This document shows, in pieces, positions 56,770 to 59,464 of a stretch of 64,000 nt of DNA; position 1 is the first letter of the stretch; the number at the start of each line of letters is the position of its first letter. Below the pieces are notes generated by a model. The model searched no databases. It was not told where the DNA came from and was given only the letters and a program-made list of their open reading frames with translations. The DNA is taken from assembly GCA_963921825.1 (NCBI GenBank), contig OY997589.1, positions 20,295,735 to 20,359,734 on the forward strand, written 5' to 3'. Position numbers and translations under genes: made by a program. Source of the DNA: Erodium maritimum. Its lineage: Eukaryota > Streptophyta > Magnoliopsida > Geraniales > Geraniaceae.

Positions 56770-59464
56770 TCACAGTATTGTCATTGCTACGCAATTATCT
56801 TCTGAACCACCAACTATATACTTCCCATTTGTTACAGAAAAGCTGGATGAGCTGCAGTACTTGGAATTAACATGGCCAGTGTATGTCTTCAGAAACTTCC
56901 CAGTTGAAAAATTCCAAAGTCTCTGCACAAACAGCAAAACAAAATTAATTCAACAAAAATGGATATAGAAGCATGCTACTGATACAACATCACACTTCTG
57001 CCGTGCAAGTTACTAAATTGGCTTGTATATGTGCTTGTATGTAATATCTAACAACAATTGCATGTATGATGTATGGCACATGCTGCTCATATAAGTCAAC
57101 GTAACAAAACCTATAAGACAAATCATACAAGGAACTGTATTTTGTTTGGTTGTAATTATTACCTAAAAGAGTAAAAAAATGTCACAAAGCCACATGACTA
57201 ACTCCTAAATGATGAGGCCAATATGCTTAAGTGTTCCTTGTAAGGCAGAGAGAAGAGACTGGATTAATTAAATTTCCAAGTGAAACTTTCAGCACTATTG
57301 ACTAAACTCTACAAAACTTAGTTCTTTGTTTGCAGTCCTCAGGTCAATCCACAAAACTTAAGGTTTCCATTATATGCTCTATAAAAACATTTAGAAGATC
57401 AAATAAGGAAATACGAATGATAGGCTCATCACATCACCTAAAATTGAATTTTTAAGTGCTAGTGCACTGCTCTACAAGGAAGAGAACCAAGCATAAAATA
57501 ATATATCATCTCCATAGAACATATGGCTTATCATTCTTAAATCAGTTAGTATTTCTTCACATTTCACTCACAAGTAGATGCTTAGAACTGGTGTAAGATA
57601 ATCTGCTCAAGACTTCTCTCCACTTCTCCCGCCCATCAAATAGACCAATATTCATCTTCAAACTCGATCAACAAACTTGAAATGTATCACTTCTAACTAA
57701 AATTTATTCATCTCGAGATACTTCTTGGGCAGTTGATGAAGTATCCACCACCAAATTAACGGAAAAAAAACTAAGTCATGCAATGATTTCACTGTTTCGA
57801 GTAAAAATAATCAACAACCTTTTTATTGGATACCCAAGTTCTGATATTTAGAAAACAGTTAATGGGCAGCAAAATTGCAAAATCAAGTAACTACATATAT
57901 CATGCTCAACTCATAGTCTCATACAATCATAATTATAAGGAAGTATTTGTGGGTAAGAGTTGTGGATTCTCCATATTATAATAAATCAACGAAACTTGTG
58001 TACAGAATCTCTGGATTTTGATGAGTTATTTTGTAGATTACAGCAGAAGGATGGAACACTCACACTAACATTAAGAAAGCATAATTTATGGGATACAGGG
58101 AGCTGATACATCATTAAGAAACAGAAAGTAAAATATACTTCTTCGAAACATCCTTCTAATAGTTGAGAGAGAGGGAGAGGGAGAAGGAGAGATCATTAGA
58201 ACAAGTCAAATCCTTATCTTTTTCAATTTGGGCACTAGCCTGAAGTACCTAAAATTGATCAAGTCATTCCCTGACAAGGAATGGGAGACAGCCAGAGACC
58301 TATAGAGAGCTAATTCCAGATCTTCGATGAGTAGATTATATAATTACTCTAACAAGGACACTATTCAAATGTAGAAACTGGGCTTCCAATTTTCGAGGGA
58401 AAATGTTATGCTTTGTAATTTCTATAAATTAAAGATGGGGAGAGAGAGCTTCACATGCTTTGGCTTCTAGTCTGCTAACATGATTTCATTTCTAATTTCT
58501 ATAGGAAGAGCACTTCACATGCCATGGCTTCTAGACTCCAGCAGCTAGATTCAATTTCTGGACTTAAGACCCTGAGGTATTCAAATTTAATCAATTCATT
58601 CCAATATAAGAAACACTGGTATGAAGTGACCAATTCAAGAGCTATGCCTAAACAAGTTATGCTCCAAGTGTAAGATTACAAGTTTTGAAATGTAATAAAT
58701 TTATGGTTATTATTCTCTGAAATATAAGCAGATATGAAAGAAATTCAGGGATAAAAATGTTCTAGTTTAGAAAAATTCAGCAATCAAAGCAAAGCACCAA
58801 TGACACTTACCAGAGTATTATCCAAAGTCCCAACAAGAATGTATTTTCCATTGGGAGAAAACTTCACATAGGACACAGGAGGGTTCTCATCATCTATGAG
58901 GGTCTTCATGCAATGCCCAGTGGACGCATCCCAAATCCGGCACAGCCCATCGTAGCTGCTGGAGACGATGAGTGAGCCGTCGCGATCGAAATCAACGGCG
59001 GTAACAGGATCGGAGTGCGCAGGCAAGACCTTGAGGCACTTGCCGGACTTAACATCCCAGACGCGGACGGTCTCGTCGAAGGAGCCGGAGACGATCATGT
59101 TGGACTGAGGGTTGAAGTTGACGCAGAAGACGTAGTTAGTGTGGCCGTGGAGGGTCTTGATGAGGGAGCCGGTGGCGACGTCCCAGAGGCGGAGGGTCTT
59201 GTCGTCGGAAGCGGAGACGAGAAGGCGAGAGTCGGAGGAGAAGGCGAGGTCGGAGACGCCCTGGTCGTGGCCCTCGAAGATTTGGAGCGGGGAGGAGGAG
59301 TCATCGGAGGAGGCGTAGGTGCGGATGGTCTTGTCGGCGGAGGAGGATCCCAGGAGGCGTCCGTCGGAGGAGAACTTCACGGCCGAGATGGCACGTTTAT
59401 GGCCGGTTAGGGTTCTGGAGAGAGTGTAGGGCTTGAACGACTCGGACGATTCCATGGTCGCCAT
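56770..59464 (-). CDS. WDR5A-like: WDR5-type WD40 protein, two exons, truncated last blade
   Basis: Exon 1 is 59464-58811 (218 codons, starts [23 protein letters not shown]), with a GTAAGT donor at 58810. Exon 2 is 56922-56770 after a CAG acceptor, beginning [19 protein letters not shown] in phase. The intron is 1.89 kb. Motifs include the blade signatures [35 protein letters not shown] and [17 protein letters not shown], characteristic of WDR5, the scaffold of COMPASS-like H3K4 methyltransferases in the nucleus (Arabidopsis WDR5a acts on FLC). Odd: after SEDNCV about 40 codons, including the first part of blade seven, are absent, and the frame shifts, so translation ends AMTIL after 268 residues against about 317 in relatives. 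The lost tail reads [11 protein letters not shown] in another frame. Gene or recent pseudogene. Confidence 0.88.
56923..58810 (-). other. Intron of the WDR5-type gene
   Basis: GT at 58810-58809 and AG at 56924-56923 on the minus strand. The intron is AT-rich with a purine-rich GA tract at about 58165-58193 and no transposon end I recognise. It is longer than the usual plant intron of about 150-300 bp, but that is not rare in large genomes. Confidence 0.8.

Follow-up and report, generated by a model that had tools for sequence, protein, structure and literature searches.

The question raised by this locus is whether a WDR5-type gene that has lost part of its last exon is a gene in decay, a working gene of shorter form, or an artefact of assembly. 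The gene lies on the minus strand at 59464-56770 of the window, by which we mean the whole 64,000-nucleotide stretch analysed (C2:20295735-20359734 of the 763-Mb genome of Erodium maritimum, C2 being the window's own chromosome). An earlier sequence-only reading of the same DNA had described the lesion and offered pseudogene, short paralogue and assembly error as its possible meanings. Our comparisons were made within this genome and against protein-structure and family libraries (PDB and Pfam).

The truncated exon and its product

Reading of open frames and splice sites across the window gives a gene of two exons. Exon 1 (59464-58811; 218 codons, 654 nt) has an intact frame with neither stop nor frameshift, and the spliced product matches Pfam family PF25175 (Beta-prop_WDR5). 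The single intron (58810-56923) runs from GT to AG and can be aligned in part (about 65%) with the intron of a paralogue on chromosome C3. Exon 2 (56922-56770) is truncated: aligned with the intact C3 paralogue, it lacks 115 bp, which would lie between positions 56788 and 56787. As 115 bp amount to 38 codons plus one base, and not to a multiple of three, the frame shifts, and the spliced frame encodes 268 amino acids, the final residues being AMTIL, before a new TGA stop at 56772-56770. Beyond the junction, translation of the other frame and alignment both recover the relict C-terminal codons and their stop (56787-56750, with the old stop at 56752-56750). Set against the intact homologue, the gene thus carries a disabling lesion, the 115-bp frameshifting deletion. 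The sequence-only reading had correctly seen the frame shift, the end at AMTIL after 268 residues, the normal C terminus readable in another frame, and a frame that is otherwise intact with good splice sites; the loss of about 40 codons that it reported is real, and the C3 alignment puts its exact size at 38 codons and 1 nt.

The bases at the junction differ at both edges and leave no microhomology: the last base kept on the left is A, against a G preceding the right edge in both the C3 gene and a decayed 3' duplicate on C2 described below, and the first base lost is T in C3, against a first kept G. Neither microhomology nor a repeat was found at the 56788/56787 junction when these edge bases were compared with C3 and the C2 duplicate, the left edge being defined from C3 only, as the C2 copy's own deletion touches it. 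Deletions without microhomology are common in end-joining, and we infer that the piece was lost in this way. Two other routes were considered and rejected. Removal of the 115 bp in the manner of an intron fails because neither the C3 gene nor the C2 3' copy has an AG directly ahead of the right edge, and slippage between two ACTTG words that lie near the edges in the C2 3' copy would keep one of them, whereas the window gene keeps none.

What the product has lost can be placed on the WDR5 fold. The window product scores 401 bits against Beta-prop_WDR5 (cut-off 250) and covers profile positions 2-250 of 296; the C3 paralogue covers positions 1-295. The family includes human WDR5, Drosophila "will die slowly" and plant WDR5a. 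In the PDB, chains of WDR5 and "will die slowly" match the paralogue nearly full length in one stretch, its top-scoring chain being 2ymu, a repetitive WD-40 protein. The window product is unlike the family in lacking profile positions 251-296 and in having five detectable WD40 stretches, not the seven of the paralogue. It has no equivalent of the final 50 residues of the paralogue and ends in 5 new ones instead. Within the C-terminal 101 residues of the paralogue, residues 1-99 match 233-331 of human WDR5 (2xl2_A) at equal length, which puts the first lost residue at position 284 of that chain. By WDR5 topology the lost segment is presumably the outer strand of blade 6 together with most of blade 7. 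The loss does strike the last WD40 blade, as had been claimed, but by homology the damage is larger, taking in the outer strand of blade 6 as well as nearly all of blade 7. In WDR5 the last position of blade 7 is filled by the N-terminal strand, closing the ring; as far as sequence can tell, the window product does not form a full propeller of seven repeats closed by C-terminal strands.

The intact paralogue and the decayed duplicate

A search for a second full-length WDR5 locus, which the sequence-only reading had proposed, found one on C3 (coding part C3:81726172-81729303), encoding 317 amino acids that end in TVKVWTQE and sharing 93% amino acid identity with the window gene over exon 1 residues 5-218, a match that puts chance resemblance out of question. 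A more distant relative on C8 (68% amino acid identity) was recovered by searching the genome with the lost piece. Exon 1 DNA finds 11 places, eight of them partial pieces and the others C3, C8 and the locus itself. The exon 2 region gives 7 matches, one of them at 100% being the locus itself and the next best, at 96%, the C2 3' copy; no allele-like second copy of the region was found among these matches in the assembly.

A piece of WDR5 exon 1, along with sequence upstream of it, is also carried by a MULE-like element, seen on C7 (at about 3794-5760 within C7:5755000-5764900), on C8 (about 3575-5501 within C8:15878500-15888400), and further at C4:13291625-13292533 and C1:51793367-51794252. 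Its terminal inverted repeats span about 520 to 540 bp, with arms about 94% alike in the C7 and C8 copies and ends reading GGGCAATTTT..., and four long copies of its inner segment match the C7 query at 93-100%. A/T-rich 9-bp direct repeats border the copies on C7 and C8, and their low complexity makes them weak evidence. The WDR5 piece resembles the C3 gene (89%) more closely than the window gene (77%), and the element has the look of a Pack-MULE by which a fragment of WDR5 was captured and spread.

The order of events is given by the decayed duplicate. The lost piece is matched at C2:20180291-20180440 with 80% amino acid identity, on the same strand and about 172 kb downstream of the window gene. 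The stretch there (C2:20180198-20180477) lies inside a duplicate of the gene's 3' part, and its DNA matches the 3' part of the exon 2 query (positions 142-268) at 96%. Discontinuous matches to window positions 56157-57784 on the minus strand occur at C2:20176261-20180811 and C2:20219981-20220068. This remnant holds the 3' part of the intron, exon 2, the 3' untranslated region and downstream sequence; none of the 11 exon 1 DNA matches lies near C2:20.18-20.22 Mb. A further intron piece (C2:20219981-20220068, 80%) sits about 39 kb upstream of it, and about 3.4 kb interrupts the remnant between its 3' untranslated region and downstream sequence, so that the remnant was probably broken up by insertions. 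Two other stretches of its exon 2 have been deleted, one of which takes the first of the 115 bases. The remaining 114 of the 115 are kept, at the same length as in C3 and with 91 of 114 positions identical. Since the remnant retains them, the ancestor had the piece, and its loss from the window gene is a derived state that arose after the local duplication. The aligned sequences thus show a local duplication (K about 0.12) followed by the 115-bp deletion in the window gene, the divergence between remnant and window amounting to K 0.123 over five aligned blocks (1,004 bases) and ranging by block from 0.047 to 0.174.

In the C2 and C3 genes themselves the intron is at the same position and its sequence is alignable, and a shared intron indicates duplication at the DNA level; the two are therefore DNA-level duplicates, by genome duplication or otherwise. 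A comparison of 83.9 kb around the C2 gene with 38.7 kb around the C3 gene gave five matches outside the gene, with E values up to 1e-12, and none was accepted as synteny. Four fall at one place near 42640-42790 that matches several places in the C3 stretch. The fifth, at 41018-41370, follows the gene downstream in both the C2 and the C3 stretch but is a dispersed repeat: when 40 of 2,392 candidate places were scored, all 40 matched, 39 of them elsewhere at 74-78%. Open frames of at least 50 amino acids from window position 40001 on (43.9 kb of C2) matched the C3 stretch in the gene only, apart from one multi-hit frame that matches three C3 places, and no neighbour gene shared by the two loci was found in the 83.9 kb and 38.7 kb compared.

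Several repeats and one further frame were observed around the window gene. The dispersed repeat spans 40950-41450; of the 40 places scored out of 2,392 candidates, 39 were additional copies at 74-78%. One of its members is also found close by the C3 WDR5 gene, on the downstream side, and can mimic synteny. Positions 54756-55857 are a high-copy repeat (the locus and 39 long matches at 87%, among the 40 scored of 9,164 candidates), some matches being paired about 6.8 kb apart, as expected for retroelement long terminal repeats. Two adjoining dispersed repeats (about 55945-56129 and 56142-56440) lie just downstream of the gene and have many partial copies genome-wide at 70-87% (40 of 930 candidates scored). 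A neighbouring frame at 60284-60778 encodes 164 amino acids; the one paralogue found for it (C1:15381851-15382333, 74% amino acid identity) is not near the C3 WDR5 gene.

Constraint on the remaining frame and alternative readings

A dN/dS comparison of exon 1 with a full-length homologue had also been proposed, and against C3 it gives dN 0.042 and dS 0.273, a ratio of 0.15 (Nei-Gojobori, 216 codons), the dS being uncertain because exon 1 is GC-rich (GC3 0.78). The kept part of exon 2 gives dN 0.039, dS 0.444 and a ratio of 0.09 (same method, 45 codons). Polarised with the C8 relative as outgroup in 258 columns without gaps, which reach as far as residue 262 and leave the final six residues aside, copy-specific amino acid changes number 5 in the window gene and 4 in the C3 gene, with 11 unpolarised, and show no clear excess in the window copy. 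No signature of decay other than the 115-bp deletion is visible in the exon 1 frame, dN/dS or copy-specific changes. In a simple neutral model that assumes 10% indels and a transition/transversion weighting of our choosing, an exon 1 evolving neutrally throughout the time after the local duplication (K per lineage about 0.06) would remain open with a probability of about 2% and would show about 27 amino acid changes; at K 0.01 the same model gives a probability of about 52% and expects 4.5 changes. These figures point to a deletion much younger than the duplication or to an exon 1 still under constraint, and the data fit both. The earlier view that the lesion is recent or the gene tolerated is in keeping with this, exon 1 being open and the changes balanced at 5 to 4.

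Such constraint bears on the possibility that the locus is a functional short paralogue, in which the truncated protein would be produced and would work as an open propeller, for instance by competing in dominant-negative fashion with full-length WDR5 for histone-methyltransferase partners. WDR5 recognises arginine-containing motifs of its partners and functions within H3K4 methyltransferase complexes. A frame intact up to the lesion, a low dN/dS without clear excess of amino acid change, and a stop that sits in the last exon all speak for this possibility. Against it, the constraint may for the most part be older than the deletion, blade 7 lacks its ring-closing part, an intact C3 copy exists, and retention of the short form is without comparative support. 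We consider it unlikely. Its fullest version, in which the 268-residue product is translated, forms a stable open propeller and is maintained selectively, for instance because it competes with the C3 protein, so that a partial-ring WDR5 would have a regulatory role, seems to us quite improbable.

An error of assembly or consensus, with the real locus containing the 115 bp, would leave just such an intact frame around the lesion. We nevertheless regard an error as unlikely, given a junction that offers no repeat or microhomology to promote collapse and a single copy of the locus found in the assembly. The 3' end of the window gene also differs from the C2 3' copy, by 10 mismatches in the 56787-56570 block and by 26 gap positions, so the locus is not a chimeric misjoin with that copy. 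A spliced exon elsewhere, which the sequence-only reading had raised against its own claim, is hardly credible: the piece does exist on the same strand about 172 kb downstream, but it lies in a separately decayed duplicate that lacks two other parts of exon 2, and the bases ahead of it are another part of exon 2, not intron with an adjoining acceptor.

The most probable course of events

Of the three meanings first offered, pseudogene is the one we favour, as the second full-length locus makes the window gene redundant, and the other two rank low. The window gene is probably a young pseudogene, or a gene becoming one, through a 115-bp deletion in the last exon of a redundant copy, and the C3 gene would be the functional WDR5. 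In this sequence of steps, a local 3' duplication on C2 was followed by loss of the piece from the window gene, presumably through end-joining without microhomology. The new stop falls within the final exon, only 20 nt ahead of the old one, and under the exon-junction rule a stop in the last exon is not expected to cause nonsense-mediated decay, so the mRNA would escape it. The short protein, without the strands that close the seven-bladed ring, would be misfolded or unstable, and WDR5 function would be supplied from C3. Pseudogenisation of a duplicate by a small coding deletion is a general, known kind of event, and the locus resembles it in being a redundant copy with a frameshifting deletion and a kept intact paralogue; nothing categorical sets it apart, and its remaining frame is still clean.

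Only with a short protein that is stable and selected would the locus bear on the workings of incomplete propellers. Most likely, the case is ordinary decay of a spare gene copy, and annotations should not enter the window gene as full-length WDR5. As such it illustrates neatly the first steps of decay in a redundant chromatin gene, with a useful internal witness in the broken 3' duplicate, which retains almost every base of the lost piece and so shows what happened first.
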